Shown: positions 20,293 to 26,500 of the stretch, one piece after another | Layout: each line of letters opens with the position of its first letter | Numbering within the stretch: position 1 is the stretch's first letter | DNA from: an uncultured Collinsella sp. | GTDB taxonomy: Bacteria > Actinomycetota > Coriobacteriia > Coriobacteriales > Coriobacteriaceae | Assembly: GCA_949287065.1 (NCBI GenBank) | Contig: CASEEV010000092.1 | Coordinates: forward strand, 1 to 32,669 | DNA: 32,669 nucleotides | Direction of reading: 5' to 3' | Notes under the pieces: model-generated | The model's input: only the letters and a program-made list of their open reading frames with translations | Databases searched by the model: none | Told to the model about the DNA's origin: nothing | Made by a program: the position numbers and the translations under genes

Positions 20293-20351
20293 GTCTCATT
20301 TCCTCCTGTTGCGTTTCAAGTGCCTATGCTTGTGGCAGCTTAAGCTCCAGA

Positions 20352-20381
20352 ATTGTAGAGAATAACTCCAGCTCATGTCAA
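20352..20381 (-). promoter_or_regulatory. Promoter of rpmH-rnpA-yidD-yidC
   Basis: On the minus strand TTGACA (20376-20381) and TACAAT (20352-20357) are separated by 18 nt. The -35 is perfect and the -10 has one deviation. The transcript would start near 20345, 53 nt before rpmH. Confidence 0.85.
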
Positions 20382-20452
20382 TGACGCGCGTAAAACACAC
20401 AGGGCAAACACCTCGGGAGATGTTAAAATTTCTTTCACGATATTTCGTCGAC

Positions 20453-20514
20453 TTTTCAACAGCTCCTGTTGGAATTGTTGATAACTTTTCACGAAGTTGC
20501 TTCAGTTTTCAACA
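20453..20514. promoter_or_regulatory. DnaA-box-like cluster upstream of the GHKL-ATPase gene
   Basis: TTTTCAACA occurs at 20453-20461 and 20506-20514 and TGTTGATAA (reverse TTATCAACA) at 20476-20484. All differ from TTWTCCACA by the same C-to-A change. Three such sites in 62 bp of AT-rich sequence near dnaA suggest a low-affinity DnaA-binding region. Confidence 0.55.
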
Positions 20515-20529
20515 TGTTTTGAAAAGTTG

Positions 20530-20557
20530 TTGGAACAGCGCGGAAGAGTCGTAAAAT
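20530..20557 (+). promoter_or_regulatory. Promoter candidate of the GHKL-ATPase gene
   Basis: TTGGAA (20530-20535) and TAAAAT (20552-20557) are 16 nt apart. The predicted start near 20564 precedes the ATG at 20593 and argues against the TTG at 20497. The DnaA-like boxes lie directly upstream. Confidence 0.45.
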
Positions 20558-20592
20558 CGCAGGTCAAACGTAGTAGCGAACATGAAACGGGC

Positions 20593-21759
20593 ATGGCTAT
20601 GGCGGATTCGTTCTACCCCTTCGTCGACTCGGGCGAGAAAGTTGCCACCAACAGGCACATCACAGCGGCGCAAAAAAGCCCCTTCGCCGAGGCGCAGCGC
20701 GCGCAGGCAGGCGCCGAGTTGGGCGCGTACGAAGCGATGGATGCGCGTGGCGAATCTGAGCAGGTCGGAGCAGGGGGCGGCGCCGAACTCGTGCGCTACC
20801 CGGCCCGTATCGCCATCTACGACGACCTCTTGTCGACGCCGCGCGTCATCGTGGTGGAACCCAAAGACATCCGGTCGTACCTTGAGGAGATCACCAACAC
20901 GGTCAACGCCTGCGTAAAAGAGCAGGGCGGCTCCATCCCCTTCATGGTCATACGCGAGATCGTCGAGAACTTCATCCACGCGTACTTTATAGAACCCACG
21001 GTCTCGATTCTCGACAGCGGCAACACCATCCGTTTCGCCGACCAGGGACCGGGCATCGCCAACAAGGACCTCGCCCTCGAGGCGGGCATGACCAGCGCCG
21101 ACGAGCATATGAAGCGTTACATCCGCGGCGTGGGCTCGGGCTTTCCAACCGTTCAGCAGTACCTCGAGATGGCGGGCGGCAAGCTTGTGATCGAGGACAA
21201 CATGAACCGCGGAACCGTGGTGACCGTCACGCTCGACCAGACGCGCCTCGCAGGATACGGGCAGCCTGCTCCCGCGGGCGCGGCGACCCCTCAGGGCGAC
21301 CCGCGCTACGCCGGCGCGGTGCCCGGGGCAGGGGCCGCGCCGGCGGGTGCGGGCTACGGATCCCCGTGGGGCGCGCAGCCCTACCAGCCTTACCCCGCCC
21401 CATGGCCGGGCGCACAGGCACAGGCGGCGCCGATGCCCTGGCAGCAGCCGCAAGGATATGGATTTCCTCAGAGTTATCCACAAGGGCCGCAGATGTTTTC
21501 CACACCTCCGCAACCTGCGGAAACAGCAATGGCCGCGCAGGGCGAAGCAGCGCCCTTCATCTCGGAACGGGGGCATCTAGCTCTTGGTTTCCTACTCGAG
21601 CACGGATCCTGCGGACCTACCGAGCTCGCGCGAGCGTTCGGCTCCTCCAATCCCACGTGGTCCCGCGAGCTTGCTACACTGGCAGAAACGGGACTCGTCA
21701 TCAAGCGAGGCCAGAAGCACTTCCTCACCGAGTTCGGCAAAACGTACGCGGCGCACTAG
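20593..21759 (+). CDS. GHKL-type ATPase joined to a C-terminal winged helix, next to dnaA; function unknown
   Basis: 388 residues from ATG at 20593. Residues about 115-215 form a histidine-kinase-like ATP-binding domain: N box REIVENFIHA with N126, G1 box DQGPGI (150-155), and G2 box GVGSGF (179-184) followed by the strand GTVVTVTL. There is no dimerisation/phospho-acceptor domain, so it is not an ordinary sensor kinase and is closer in layout to anti-sigma-factor ATPases. A Gly/Pro/Gln/Tyr-rich linker (about 220-320) leads to a winged helix at about 322-388 (LALGFLLEHGSCGPTELARAF ... ending FLTEFGKTYAAH). The ribosome site is weak; ATG 20599 is an alternative. It lies in the slot between rpmH and dnaA, and its coding sequence contains two perfect DnaA boxes. 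A role in regulating initiation is inference. Confidence 0.82.
   Translation: MAMADSFYPFVDSGEKVATNRHITAAQKSPFAEAQRAQAGAELGAYEAMDARGESEQVGAGGGAELVRYPARIAIYDDLLSTPRVIVVEPKDIRSYLEEITNTVNACVKEQGGSIPFMVIREIVENFIHAYFIEPTVSILDSGNTIRFADQGPGIANKDLALEAGMTSADEHMKRYIRGVGSGFPTVQQYLEMAGGKLVIEDNMNRGTVVTVTLDQTRLAGYGQPAPAGAATPQGDPRYAGAVPGAGAAPAGAGYGSPWGAQPYQPYPAPWPGAQAQAAPMPWQQPQGYGFPQSYPQGPQMFSTPPQPAETAMAAQGEAAPFISERGHLALGFLLEHGSCGPTELARAFGSSNPTWSRELATLAETGLVIKRGQKHFLTEFGKTYAAH
21474..21504 (+). promoter_or_regulatory. Two consensus DnaA boxes inside the GHKL-ATPase gene
   Basis: TTATCCACA at 21474-21482 and TTTTCCACA at 21496-21504 are exact matches to TTWTCCACA, in the same orientation and 22 bp apart, about two helical turns. 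They fall in the sequence encoding the low-complexity linker, where codon choice is free. Confidence 0.75.
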
Positions 21760-21817: not shown

Positions 21818-23545
21818 ATGGACAGCGAAGCCCAGATACTTCTCGACGACACGCGCGCGTTCTGCGAGCGAGACGGGCGCGACCAGCGCCTCGTGAACAT
21901 GCTCGCTCAATGCCGCGCGATCGACCTCACCGAAAGCTCCCTCGTCATCGCCGCGCCGTCGCGCTTTGCCGTGGCCTACCTCGACAAGCAGCGCGCGGTG
22001 ATCGAGCCCTACCTCGAAGAGATCGCGTTTGCCCAGCTCGCGCTCGAAGTACGCCCTCCCGAGCAAGAGGGCGGAGCGGCGCCTCGGGTGCAGGCCGGCC
22101 CCAGCACTCCGGCACCCACTCCGGCACCCACGCCCGCGCCAGCACCCGCGCCCCAAACCGCGTCGGCGGCCCAGCGCGCAGAGAACAGCGCGCCCGCACC
22201 GAGCGCCCCCGCAGCCGCCCCCAACACGCCTGCGCCGCAGGCTCCTGCCGCGAGCGCAGAGCCCGCACCGGCCGCGGCAGCCGGATCAGCTGTGCGCAAC
22301 GCAGTCTCCCCCGCAGACTTCGCCCGCCTCATGGCCCAGATGAACGGGGCAGCAGCGCCCAACACCGCGGCTGCCGGCAACGAGGCTGCGGGCAGCGCAC
22401 CTGCCGAGCCCGCTGCAGAGCCCGCAGCCGCCGTGGGCATAAACTCCAAATTCACGTTCACGAACTTCATCCTGGGCTCCGAGAACAAGCTCGCCTACCA
22501 GAGCGCGATCCGCTTCACGGCGCTCGCCGAAGAAGGCGCAGGCGCCCGCGCGCTCTTCATCTACGGCCACAGCGGCCTCGGCAAAACCCACCTTCTGCTC
22601 GCCATCAAAAACGAGCTCGCCAAGTGCCGCCCCGACCTCAGGGTCAAGTACGCCAACTCCCAGGCCTACATCGACGACTACATGCGCGACCTCGCCGACC
22701 TCAAGAACGACAGCGGCAAGGGGGTGCTGCGCGAGTACCACGACGCAGACGTGCTCATCATCGACGATATCCAGAACATCCTCGGCAAGCAGTCGACCAT
22801 CGAGCAGTTCTTCCAGCTTGTCGACGAGTTCATCCGCAAGGGCAAGGGCATCGCCATCGCCTCCGACCGCGCCCCCAAAGAGCTCGCCATGGACGAGCGC
22901 CTCACGAGCCGCTTCAACTCCGGCATGCTCTGCCTCGTGTCCGAGCCCGGCTACGAGACCAAGCTCGCGATTCTCAAGCACTACTACGAGAATATGATCA
23001 AGGCCAAGGACATCTCGCAGTACGCCAACGTCGACCCCGACCTTCTCCAGGCGCTCCAGATGGATTCGGGCACGCTCACCGAGGACCAGCTCAGCTTCAT
23101 GGCCGAGATCTCGGGCAACAACATCCGCGAGCTCGAGAGCTTCTGCGAGCGCTGCGCCAACGACGCGCGCGAGAAGGAGCTGGCCGGCAAGGAGCTCACC
23201 AACGAAGACATCCAGTCGATCGCCAACCAGTACTTCGACACCGCCGCCAAGGTAATCCGCGTCGGAACCGTGCAGACCGTCGTGGAGGAGTTCTACCAGG
23301 TTCCCCACAAGGAGATGATCGGCCGCAAGCGCACGAGCAACATCGCCACGGCGCGCCACATGGCCATCTACCTCACCTACGAGCTCTGCTCCATGTCGCT
23401 CAACGCCATCGGCGCGGCGTTCGGCGGGCGCGACCACTCGACCGTGCTCTCGAGCGTCAAGGTCATCGAGCGGCGTCTCGAGGGCGACCCGTCGGTGCGC
23501 GAGGAGTGCCAGCACCTGAGGACCAAGATCCAGCTGAGATCGTAG
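21818..23545 (+). CDS. dnaA: Chromosomal replication initiator DnaA
   Basis: AAA+ ATPase that binds DnaA boxes and opens the origin. 575 residues, longer than the usual 440-470. Domain I covers 1-80. Domain II is an Ala/Pro-rich linker of about 125 residues (83-208). Domain III starts at NSKFTFTNF and has Walker A GHSGLGKTH with K256 and Walker B LIIDDIQN with D316/D317. Domain IV ends with the DnaA signature AFGGRDHSTVLSSV, which contacts the box. The extra length is all in the linker. The ATG at 21818 has only a weak CAGG upstream. It follows the GHKL-ATPase gene by 58 bp; a TATATAA-like stretch at 21781-21788 could be a -10 box but lacks a -35. Confidence 0.97.
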   Translation: MDSEAQILLDDTRAFCERDGRDQRLVNMLAQCRAIDLTESSLVIAAPSRFAVAYLDKQRAVIEPYLEEIAFAQLALEVRPPEQEGGAAPRVQAGPSTPAPTPAPTPAPAPAPQTASAAQRAENSAPAPSAPAAAPNTPAPQAPAASAEPAPAAAAGSAVRNAVSPADFARLMAQMNGAAAPNTAAAGNEAAGSAPAEPAAEPAAAVGINSKFTFTNFILGSENKLAYQSAIRFTALAEEGAGARALFIYGHSGLGKTHLLLAIKNELAKCRPDLRVKYANSQAYIDDYMRDLADLKNDSGKGVLREYHDADVLIIDDIQNILGKQSTIEQFFQLVDEFIRKGKGIAIASDRAPKELAMDERLTSRFNSGMLCLVSEPGYETKLAILKHYYENMIKAKDISQYANVDPDLLQALQMDSGTLTEDQLSFMAEISGNNIRELESFCERCANDAREKELAGKELTNEDIQSIANQYFDTAAKVIRVGTVQTVVEEFYQVPHKEMIGRKRTSNIATARHMAIYLTYELCSMSLNAIGAAFGGRDHSTVLSSVKVIERRLEGDPSVREECQHLRTKIQLRS

Positions 23546-23819
23546 GCAAAACCAACCGCCGGGCCGGAGGGGGCCTGTGGAAAACTGGAGTATGATATGC
23601 GGACAACGGGAGGAAAAACGCCGCGGTCGCGTGGAAAGCCCCGAGAGGCCCTCAGGGCTGTGGACAAACGCCTTGGGTTTTCCACGTGCCCAAAAGGCAA
23701 CTTTACGGGCGCTACCTGCGGAGATCCGAACACTCCACGTTTTCAACCGCCTTATTACTACTGTTAGGTTTAGATATATAAGAGAACATTAATAAGACCC
23801 GTTCCCAGAAAGGTGCACC
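23546..23819. other. oriC: Replication origin (oriC) between dnaA and dnaN
   Basis: DnaA boxes: TGTGGAAAA (23576-23584), TGCGGACAA (23598-23606, one mismatch), TGTGGACAA (23659-23667), TTTTCCACG (23678-23686, one mismatch), and weak TTTTCAACC (23740-23748). Right after the last box, 23752-23766 (TTATTACTACTGTTA) reads on the other strand 3'-AAT-AAT-GAT-GAC-AAT. This fits the DnaA-trio pattern of basal unwinding elements in the same orientation relative to the box as in Bacillus. An AT-rich tract follows (23767-23792). The gene directions on both sides of the dnaA region diverge, as expected. Confidence 0.85.
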
Positions 23820-24930: not shown

Positions 24931-26019
24931 ATGGCCATGCAGCTGACGCACCTTACGGTGCGTGACTTCCGCAGTTTCGAGGCGTACGACCTCGACCCGT
25001 CGCCGGCGACCACCATTCTCGTGGGCCGCAACGCCGTGGGCAAGACGAACCTCGTCGAGGCTCTGCAGCTTCTCACGGCGGGCCAGTCGTTTAGGCGCCC
25101 CTCTCCGCGCGAGCTTGTGCGGGAGGGCGCTCCGTGCGCCATGGCGGCCGCGCGCCTCGAGGGCGAGGGCCGCGTTGTCGACATCCGCCTCGACGTGGCG
25201 GGCGGCAAGCGGTCGTTCAAGCGCAACGGCAAGGGCGTCTCTGCCGCGGGCGTGCGCGGCATCGTGCCGTCGGTCCTGTTCTGCCCTGATCATCTCGATA
25301 TGGTCAAGCGCTCCGCGCGCGTGCGCCGCGAGGCGCTCGACGACTTCGGCATGCAACTCAACGAGCAGTACGCCAAGCTCGTGTCCGCGTACGCGCGCTC
25401 GGTGGAGCAGCGCAACGCCCTGCTCAAGGAGCCTGCGCTCGACGTTGGGCTTCTCGAGGCGTGGGACGAGTCGATAGCGCTCACGGGGGCGGCGCTGCTG
25501 CAGCATCGCTGCGCGCTTCTCGACCGGGTGCGCGCGCATATGGCCGAGGCCTACGTCACGATCGCCCCGCACGAGGAGATCGGCGTGGCGTACGAGGCGA
25601 CTATCGGACCGGTCGACGGCGCCTCGCGCGAAGAGCTCGCCGACCGCCTGGTGGAGGCGTTTCGCACCCGGCGCGACGAGGAGCGCCGCCGCGGCATGAC
25701 GCTCGCGGGCCCGCACCGCGACGAGATCGTTTTTACCATCGACGGCCGCGACGCGCGGGCCTTCGGCTCGCAGGGGCAGCAGCGCAGCGTGGTGCTCGCC
25801 TGGAAGATGGCCGAGGTGCGCGTGACGCGCGACATACTCGGCCGGTACCCCCTCCTTTTGCTCGACGACGTGATGAGCGAGCTCGACGCTTCCCGGCGCG
25901 ACGCCATCATGGGCATTGCCGAGCGCTCGGTGCAGACGGTGGTTACCACCACCAACCTGGGGTACTTCTCGCACGAGGTTCTGGACGCGGCGCAGGTGGT
26001 GAGGATCGGCGATGAGTGA
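24931..26019 (+). CDS. recF: DNA replication and repair protein RecF
   Basis: SMC/ABC-like ATPase that helps load RecA at gaps. 362 residues. Walker A is GRNAVGKT with K38, the ABC signature is SQGQQRS (280-286), and Walker B is LLLDDVMSELD with D312/D313. It starts 7 bp after dnaN with a weak AGG ribosome site and its end overlaps dciA by 8 bp, so the genes form a tight operon. Confidence 0.95.
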   Translation: MAMQLTHLTVRDFRSFEAYDLDPSPATTILVGRNAVGKTNLVEALQLLTAGQSFRRPSPRELVREGAPCAMAAARLEGEGRVVDIRLDVAGGKRSFKRNGKGVSAAGVRGIVPSVLFCPDHLDMVKRSARVRREALDDFGMQLNEQYAKLVSAYARSVEQRNALLKEPALDVGLLEAWDESIALTGAALLQHRCALLDRVRAHMAEAYVTIAPHEEIGVAYEATIGPVDGASREELADRLVEAFRTRRDEERRRGMTLAGPHRDEIVFTIDGRDARAFGSQGQQRSVVLAWKMAEVRVTRDILGRYPLLLLDDVMSELDASRRDAIMGIAERSVQTVVTTTNLGYFSHEVLDAAQVVRIGDE

Positions 26020-26500
26020 CGAGACGGTGCGCCCCGAGGCCGTGCGCGGCGGCAGGGCGGAGGAGGAGCGCCGCCGGCGCATCGAGCACGACGAGCTCGA
26101 GCGCGCCGCCGAGCATCCGTGGCCGTACGGCGGATCCGTGCCCCGGCACGCCATGCGCGACCTCAAAGGCTACCTCGCCGCCGAGCGCGGCCGCGTGCTC
26201 GGCGGGGCGTCGCCGCAGATGCGCGACCGCATGCGCGCGGCCGAGCGCCGCGGCGCGGTGTTTGCCGCCTGGAACGCCGTTATGGCCTCGAGCCCCGAGG
26301 TGGCGCGCGAGAAGGACCATGTGACCGGCCTGTACTACGCTGAGGCCGAGAACGCCCTCGTGGTGTACGTCGACGCCCAGGCATGGGGGACGAACCTCAC
26401 GATGATGCGCGAGATTCTCCGCACCCGCATGGAGTTCCAGGGCGCCCGCGTGGAAAAGATCGTCGTGCGCGTCTCGCGCGAGGGGTACCGACGTCGCTGA
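26012..26500 (+). CDS. dciA: DciA-family protein (DUF721), probable replicative-helicase loader
   Basis: 162 residues. The C-terminal part (about 80-160: VFAAWNAVMASS...LVVYVDAQAWGTNLTMMREIL) matches DUF721/DciA proteins, which assist DnaB loading in bacteria without DnaC or DnaI. The N-terminal 40 residues are charged and probably disordered. The ATG lies inside the end of recF with GAGG 7 nt upstream. Position between recF and gyrB is the standard actinobacterial one. Confidence 0.85.
   Translation: MSDETVRPEAVRGGRAEEERRRRIEHDELERAAEHPWPYGGSVPRHAMRDLKGYLAAERGRVLGGASPQMRDRMRAAERRGAVFAAWNAVMASSPEVAREKDHVTGLYYAEAENALVVYVDAQAWGTNLTMMREILRTRMEFQGARVEKIVVRVSREGYRRR

Follow-up and report, generated by a model that had tools for sequence, protein, structure and literature searches.

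Regulators of DnaA are known mainly from Escherichia coli, Bacillus subtilis, Caulobacter and a few other bacteria, and we know of none for most deep Actinomycetota. The GHKL ATP-binding domain (HATPase_c), with its N, G1 and G2 boxes, is shared by sensor histidine kinases and CheA. Histidine kinases have Asn at the position four residues before the N-box Asn (N-4). Glu at N-4 is typical of ATP-hydrolysing or Ser-kinase GHKL proteins and not of histidine kinases, and it is the base position in GHKL ATPases and in the Ser kinases of the SpoIIAB and BCKD type. SpoIIAB has His at N+4. Winged helices of the MarR/IclR type usually belong to repressors. The structure 3lmm, a structural-genomics entry, is that of DIP2311 from Corynebacterium diphtheriae; we take 3lmm-like proteins to be AlbA/Schlafen-type regulators, and to our knowledge DIP2311 has no link to dnaA.

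At the origin itself, AdpA, MtrA, HP1021 and IciA are treated in a review as oriBPs, that is, DNA-binding regulators at oriC, and the same review gives dnaA as the usual spacer of bipartite origins (PMC4285127). Among the origins covered in another paper, those of B. subtilis and C. difficile are described as bipartite (PMC7561715). A precedent by position is DciA (PF05258), a conserved gene of the dnaA cluster that was long uncharacterised and, by the account in PMC5109545, proved to encode an initiation protein; it is unrelated to the protein described here.

We analysed a window of 32,669 nucleotides from an uncultured Collinsella sp. ("the window" is this whole stretch of DNA), in which a gene for a GHKL ATPase with a winged helix lies directly ahead of dnaA. 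The frame 20593–21759 of the + strand is open, and gives 388 aa when read from 20593. For the placement of the start codon, 20 close relatives were aligned (alignment A1). As these relatives begin with M-x-x-x-F-(Y/F)-(P/T), mostly MA(D/R)xFYPFV, the true start is probably the second ATG at 20599, which gives a gene of 20599–21759 (+) and 386 aa; 20593, two codons upstream, is a possible start. An earlier note on this DNA, made from the letters alone, had proposed 20593–21759. Its open frame stands, and its start should probably be moved by these two codons.

The structure was predicted with AlphaFold2 using 71 sequences (alignment A3), and pLDDT was averaged per ten-residue block. Besides the window protein, A3 contains 70 of the 80 named loci; L137, L150, L152, L157, L165, L167, L172, L186, L193 and L198 were left out for a doubtful start, near duplication or failure of the motif pattern. 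The GHKL domain (20797–21255, +, about residues 67–219) carries a beta hairpin at its N-terminal front, and the block means for residues 61–220 are 74–98. It is followed by a disordered linker of about 100 aa rich in Pro, Ala, Gln and Tyr (21256–21558, +), with block means of 45–64 over residues 221–320. The C-terminal winged helix of the MarR/IclR/TrmB kind (21559–21756, +, about residues 321–386) has block means of 94–98. The first 60 residues show only 37–51. The GHKL and winged-helix folds are thus predicted with high confidence, and the flexible linker followed by a winged helix, as read in the earlier note, is reproduced by the model. In the fetched relatives outside Coriobacteriales the linker is estimated at mostly 14–51 aa, with exceptions of 72, 82 and 109 aa.

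Profile searches agree with this layout. Pfam HATPase_c (PF02518) matches the window protein with E 3.6e-10 (40.7 bits, cut-off 26.4), and is matched by all 71 members of A3. HTH_IclR matches with E 1.9e-5 (24.8 bits, cut-off 22). MarR_2 stays under its cut-off (20.6 against 27 bits), and other MarR-type matches are weak. Among the nine Pfam families matched by the window protein at E up to 10, there is no HisKA, HPt or receiver domain, as expected from the earlier claim that a phospho-acceptor domain is absent. Nor was a HisKA or receiver domain seen in the 71 A3 members among the matches listed (25 of 30 Pfam families).

According to VIA-align, the GHKL part, together with its N-terminal hairpin, is best matched by 3lmm (Z 14.7, rmsd 2.7, 151 residues, 18% identity), followed by CpxA 4biw (Z 11.0) and SpoIIAB 1l0o (Z 10.9, rmsd 3.2, 128 residues). 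The winged helix matches MarR-type chains with Z of about 12. Of the VIA-align output, matches alone serve as evidence here. Each of these likenesses is partial. In contrast to 3lmm-like proteins, AlbA_2 is not listed for the window protein in Pfam at E up to 10, where residues 1–60 have low pLDDT, and it is not found in the A3 relatives among the matches listed. Histidine kinases and CheA share the HATPase_c domain and its boxes, whereas the window protein has no HisKA or other phospho-acceptor match, is joined to a winged helix and has Glu at N-4. SpoIIAB/RsbW have a similar fold, likewise lack a phospho-acceptor domain and have Glu at N-4, but the window protein has a predicted DNA-binding domain attached and its gene lies between rpmH and dnaA. 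The C-terminal part resembles MarR, IclR and TrmB regulators; however, their ligand, dimerisation or effector domain was not found, and the rest of the protein is the GHKL domain plus stretches of low confidence. The proposed mode of action, a DNA-binding regulator at oriC, is like that of the oriBPs. No GHKL protein is named in the part of the review that deals with them (PMC4285127), whereas the window gene lies directly ahead of dnaA and its product would bind DNA by its predicted fold.

The protein as a whole falls into none of the curated families of Pfam, NCBIfam, PADLOC or PHROGs. Among the matches listed for NCBIfam (25 models), none is near its cut-off; PADLOC and PHROGs give weak winged-helix or kinase-like matches only, and Rfam gives nothing at gathering thresholds. 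A description of the protein was not found in the literature searched, which was limited to open-access papers and partly to top-ranked results. Coriobacteriales lack actinobacterial signature genes according to PMC4255298, and the GHKL gene is unmentioned in the part of that paper on these genes. The earlier note had recognised no described family, and had asked whether the protein belongs to a well-characterised regulator family with unrelated targets; the database results agree with the former and reveal no such membership.

The ATP-binding boxes of the window protein are intact, as the earlier note had stated. The N box (20956–20979, +) reads E-I-V-E-N-F-I-H, with E120, N124 and H127 in the numbering from 20599; G1 (21040–21057, +) reads DQGPGI, and G2 (21127–21141, +) reads GVGSG. 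In A3, whose 70 relatives were all pre-selected by a motif pattern, E120, N124, H127, D148, G150, G152, G177, G179 and G181 are invariant. The pattern itself demanded D or E at N-4, the N-box Asn, DxGxG and GxGxG, and 194 of 199 loci passed it. Glu at N-4 and His at N+3 occur in every one of these 194. The five failures (L069, L111, L186, L198 and L231) all have His, and four have Glu at N-4, L069 having Ser. In total, Glu at N-4 is found in 198/199 proteins and His at N+3 in 199/199. Gyrase B in the same window carries a similar box, E-I-V-D-N.

The conserved Glu at N-4 would also suit a kinase tethered to the origin. A GHKL domain like that of SpoIIAB or of the pyruvate/BCKD kinases could phosphorylate Ser/Thr of DnaA or of another initiation protein, and the winged helix would be no more than an anchor on DNA. 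The SpoIIAB alignment given above points in this direction, as do the BCKDK chains among the sequence-profile and Foldseek matches. However, the protein scores 18 bits with the NCBIfam model spIIAB (TIGR01925), whose cut-off is 135; its conserved His stands at N+3, unlike that of SpoIIAB, and there is no excess co-variation with DnaA (see below). We consider a kinase unlikely.

In the window, rpmH (ribosomal protein L34; 20158–20292, −) is the divergent upstream neighbour, and dnaA (21818–23545, +) follows the GHKL stop codon at a distance of 58 bp. The dnaA product matches Bac_DnaA (8.5e-41) and Bac_DnaA_C (2.3e-22). Neighbouring genes of the relatives were located by tblastn, mainly with the window proteins, so that the calls depend on similarity to these. 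In 12 of 199 distinct loci, the fetched DNA stops no more than 400 bp past the matched part; in the other 187 it is long enough, and without exception the gene that follows in the same direction is dnaA (187/187). Thus homologues scattered away from dnaA, which the earlier note had named as a refutation, were not seen. rpmH is divergent upstream in 181 of the 199 loci, on the other side in 8 and not found in 10. The gap between the GHKL gene and dnaA has a median of about 15 bp, is 100 bp or less in 131/154 loci, and is an overlap in 21; these figures err short because the gap was taken up to the earliest start codon that the dnaA frame allows. We presume the GHKL gene to be the first gene of a GHKL–dnaA operon.

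In the eight loci with displaced rpmH (L118, L119, L127, L186, L198, L203, L205 and L208), the GHKL–dnaA pair is intact in every case, and in six dnaN is divergent on the upstream side. These eight may stem from one or two events. In the Eggerthellaceae-type loci L118, L119, L127, L203, L205 and L208, the pair is inverted relative to dnaN and rpmH; such an inversion would bring the upstream box cluster beside dnaN.

A strong match (E ≤ 4.4e-23) was found in 264 of 296 genomes of the class. A match at E ≤ 1e-3 was obtained in 273, of which nine weak ones (worse than 1e-6) were left out of the count. Among 396 genomes of the phylum, 178 match at E ≤ 1e-5, part of these being weak kinase-like matches; strong matches occur in other deep Actinomycetota, Rubrobacter included. 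A scan of genome contigs gave 483 confirmed places, and the titles of the best 80 of 483 include Coriobacteriia, Anaerosomatales, Candidatus Aquicultor, Slackia piriformis, Raoultibacter and Gordonibacter, and also ANGP1, UBP13 and two MAGs titled Clostridia or Bacillota. The gene is present (E ≤ 1e-12) in 38/43 genomes of the phylum around the ANGP1 MAG, a name that comes from the MAG title and is possibly wrong. In the Bacillota-like phylum around the "Clostridia" MAG, whose title is possibly wrong as well, it is present in 14/119 (E ≤ 1e-12). Phages gave no match to the GHKL protein, viral contigs gave 40 pattern matches but no confirmed relative, and plasmids gave a single weak partial match. 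The earlier note had placed the gene between rpmH and dnaA as an insertion. The position is right, and a local or lineage-specific insertion does not hold, the gene being present in most of the class and beyond.

Thirty-two genomes of the class have no strong match, and 29 of them were examined (three were unlisted). In 19 of the 29, dnaA was likewise not found (E 1e-20), so that these absences are uninformative; the assembly probably lacks the locus. Among the ten with dnaA, eight show rpmH–dnaA without the gene, one (G162) has no GHKL gene upstream of dnaA and no rpmH in the fetched DNA, and one has a contig that begins inside dnaA. Since nine of these ten have no GHKL gene beside dnaA, the gene is dispensable in some lineages, and real losses exist in families f3, f9, f13 and f23.

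Inheritance is mostly vertical. Over 108 loci with all four proteins, the GHKL distances correlate with those of DnaN (0.63) and YidC (0.65), and less with those of DnaA (0.26). The mirror-tree analysis of the same 108 loci shows no excess GHKL–DnaA co-variation (partial r −0.24, against 0.24 for DnaN and 0.41 for YidC). This speaks against a partnership specific to DnaA, with the reservation that the divergence of DnaA in the window's family may make the comparison less sharp.

The protein might regulate other genes and be a mere passenger beside dnaA, kept there in a frozen ancestral order and co-transcribed by place. The order rpmH–dnaA–dnaN is in any case widely frozen, losses of the gene occur, its GHKL and winged-helix parts are common modules, and the motif searches at the origin gave no binding site of the protein's own. 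On the other hand, the pair is kept where rpmH has moved, its spacing is tight, dnaA is next at every locus with enough DNA, and the same place is occupied in more than one phylum. With these observations, a passenger seems improbable to us.

The intergenic regions on both sides of the GHKL–dnaA pair carry DnaA boxes. In the rpmH–GHKL interval (20296–20598), presumably the upstream, oriC1-like half of a bipartite origin, DnaA-like boxes occur at 20453, 20476 and 20506, each with one mismatch, and there is no strict box (TT[AGT]TCCACA). The dnaA–dnaN interval (23546–23819), presumably the downstream, oriC2-like half, has boxes at 23576, 23598, 23659 and 23678, two strict and two with one mismatch, and the trio-like sequence TTATTACTACTG at 23752–23763. 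It also contains an AT-rich stretch. By its sequence, this interval is likely the unwinding site. GC skew within the window alone was too noisy to place the origin.

In the relatives, strict boxes occur at 3.44 per kb in the rpmH–GHKL intervals (present in 127/167) and at 3.43 per kb in the dnaA–dnaN intervals (present in 50/110). The density is 0.18 per kb in the GHKL gene, 0.06 in dnaA and 0.01 in dnaN, and no strict box was found in 226 kb of rnpA–yidC DNA of the relatives. Words of the TAGTAGTAATA type, the DnaA-trio signature, are among the top enriched in the dnaA–dnaN intervals of the relatives and not in the rpmH–GHKL intervals. All eight gene-loss genomes that show rpmH–dnaA keep boxes between the two genes. 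The region with DnaA boxes reported in the earlier note is thus present, and it resembles one half, the upstream one, of a bipartite oriC. We presume that the two intervals together form an active oriC. The arrangement is like that of the B. subtilis and C. difficile origins as presented in PMC7561715, whereas the spacer here is the GHKL gene plus dnaA. It suggests a second architecture of bipartite origins, and the gene helps to locate oriC in genomes.

Our preferred explanation, which we put forward tentatively as the most plausible one, is a conserved ATP-switched winged-helix regulator of the dnaA operon and/or the origin, encoded first in the dnaA operon. The predicted folds, the intact ATP-site residues, the place ahead of dnaA and the upstream DnaA-box cluster are observed; the ATP-gated pairing, the DNA binding and the effect on the operon or the origin are the parts that we infer. 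ATP binding would close the GHKL lid and pair two subunits. The pairing would put two winged helices, on flexible linkers, onto the origin-region DNA before the protein's own gene. The bound protein would set the transcription of its own operon, and hence the supply of DnaA, and/or it would help or hinder DnaA assembly on the upstream half of oriC. ATP turnover, for which the conserved Glu is at the general-base position of GHKL ATPases, would reset the protein. If this is true, initiation would be tied to the nucleotide state independently of DnaA-ATP. The nine genomes with dnaA but no GHKL gene beside it weigh against this explanation, as do the lack of excess correlation with DnaA and the failure of the best candidate for a binding site (see below).

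A wider version of the preferred explanation is possible, and we regard it with more doubt. Here, the protein would be an ancient ATP-switched initiation regulator whose gene opens the dnaA operon in several lineages, namely deep Actinomycetota (Coriobacteriia, Rubrobacter), the ANGP1-type phylum and part of the Bacillota-like phylum, and that acts at the upstream half of oriC with its own reading of ATP. With the same reserve, its GHKL lid might sense ATP apart from the ATP cycle of DnaA, with the GHKL gene plus dnaA as the origin spacer. With its predicted ATP- and DNA-binding domains and its fixed place beside dnaA in more than one phylum, the gene is a strong candidate that can be tested directly. 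It would make the control of initiation outside the model bacteria concrete, in gut Coriobacteriia (Eggerthella and relatives) and in Rubrobacter.

A binding site of the winged helix was sought ahead of the gene. In the window, a dyad TTTTCAACA-TG-TTTTGAAAA with the arms TTTTCAA/TTGAAAA lies at 20506–20525, and 15 of 18 loci of the same family have a similar one. Elsewhere in the draft genome, every place differs from TTTTCAACANNTTTTGAAAA by at least three mismatches. In the relatives, the inverted repeat TCCACA-N2-TGTGGA occurs in 72/167 rpmH–GHKL intervals and in none of the shuffles; a relaxed form with a 1–3 bp spacer occurs in 94/167. It is found once per genome in 32 of 33 holders, which were chosen for having it, and twice in G427. 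It is found in 0/9 genomes that lost the GHKL gene. It goes together with an R-[DE]-L recognition helix, a correlation that is confounded by one clade, Coriobacteriales. Among the gene-loss lineages, only one contrast within a family is clean, that of f13 (three holders with the dyad, one loser without); in f9 the holder L069 is likewise without it.

As a control, 14 actinobacterial genomes were used (eight with no match and six with weak kinase-like matches). In six of them TCCACA-N2-TGTGGA lies immediately ahead of dnaA at a place that has no GHKL gene, and rpmH is on the other side in five of these six. In the Bacillota-like phylum, the repeat is at the locus in 2/14 holders and beside dnaA in three gene-less genomes. 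Because it also stands ahead of dnaA in the 6/14 gene-less controls, the dyad is an oriC element and not a GHKL operator; the idea that the winged helix has its operator here is not upheld. A compact element, TCCACA-N2-TGTGGAAAG-N3-TGTGGATAA, lies upstream of the GHKL gene in 72 loci (within L055–L110 and L134–L209) and also upstream of dnaA in the GHKL-less L242–L244, L246, L248 and L249. It stands once per genome in 32 of the 33 chosen genomes, and is possibly a general orisome module.

Word searches of the rpmH–GHKL intervals gave only DnaA boxes, TTGACA, words resembling −10 elements and a GGTAGA word of no definite form, a kind of search that a degenerate site would escape. Sigma70-like TTGACA words are enriched upstream of the GHKL gene, although some belong to the divergent rpmH promoter. 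The earlier proposal of a candidate regulator of initiation or of dnaA transcription thus keeps its support from position, and it gains none from a DNA site, as no site of the protein's own was found and the dyad failed. A narrower form of the preferred explanation is a pure autoregulator of dnaA-operon transcription, with no action at the origin as such. The first place in a tight presumed operon, the enriched TTGACA words and the MarR/IclR-like winged helix speak for it, and the lack of an operator of its own among the words searched speaks against it; we think it very unlikely.

The preferred explanation concerns the protein, and DnaA boxes are also found inside its gene. The window contains four strict boxes, two in the dnaA–dnaN interval and two, perfect and on the same strand (+), 22 bp apart in the linker-coding DNA at 21474–21504 (TTATCCACA and TTTTCCACA). 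The 22-bp same-strand pair is present in 9/18 loci of the window's family (six with both boxes strict, three with one mismatch in one of the boxes) and absent from the other nine. The linkers of the family hold 15 strict boxes, against a mean of 0.99 and a maximum of 7 in 2000 synonymous shuffles; for the window alone, two boxes were reached in 62/20000 shuffles. With such a constraint at the DNA level, the SYPQ and FSTP motifs of the linker are probably in part a by-product in this family. That the DNA and not the protein is selected, the gene being a spacer and box reservoir between the origin halves, might be argued from this pair and its excess over shuffles, but is hardly credible, as the ATP-site and winged-helix residues are conserved across lineages and, taken over all loci, the gene seldom contains strict boxes (28 in 159.5 kb, in 22/182 loci).

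The DnaA of the window has a long Ala/Pro-rich stretch at about residues 80–205, and its tblastn identity to DnaA outside its own family is about 28–39%. It is possibly a fast-evolving initiator. A DciA-like ORF lies between recF and gyrB (26012–26500), with 24.3 bits against the Pfam cut-off of 24.
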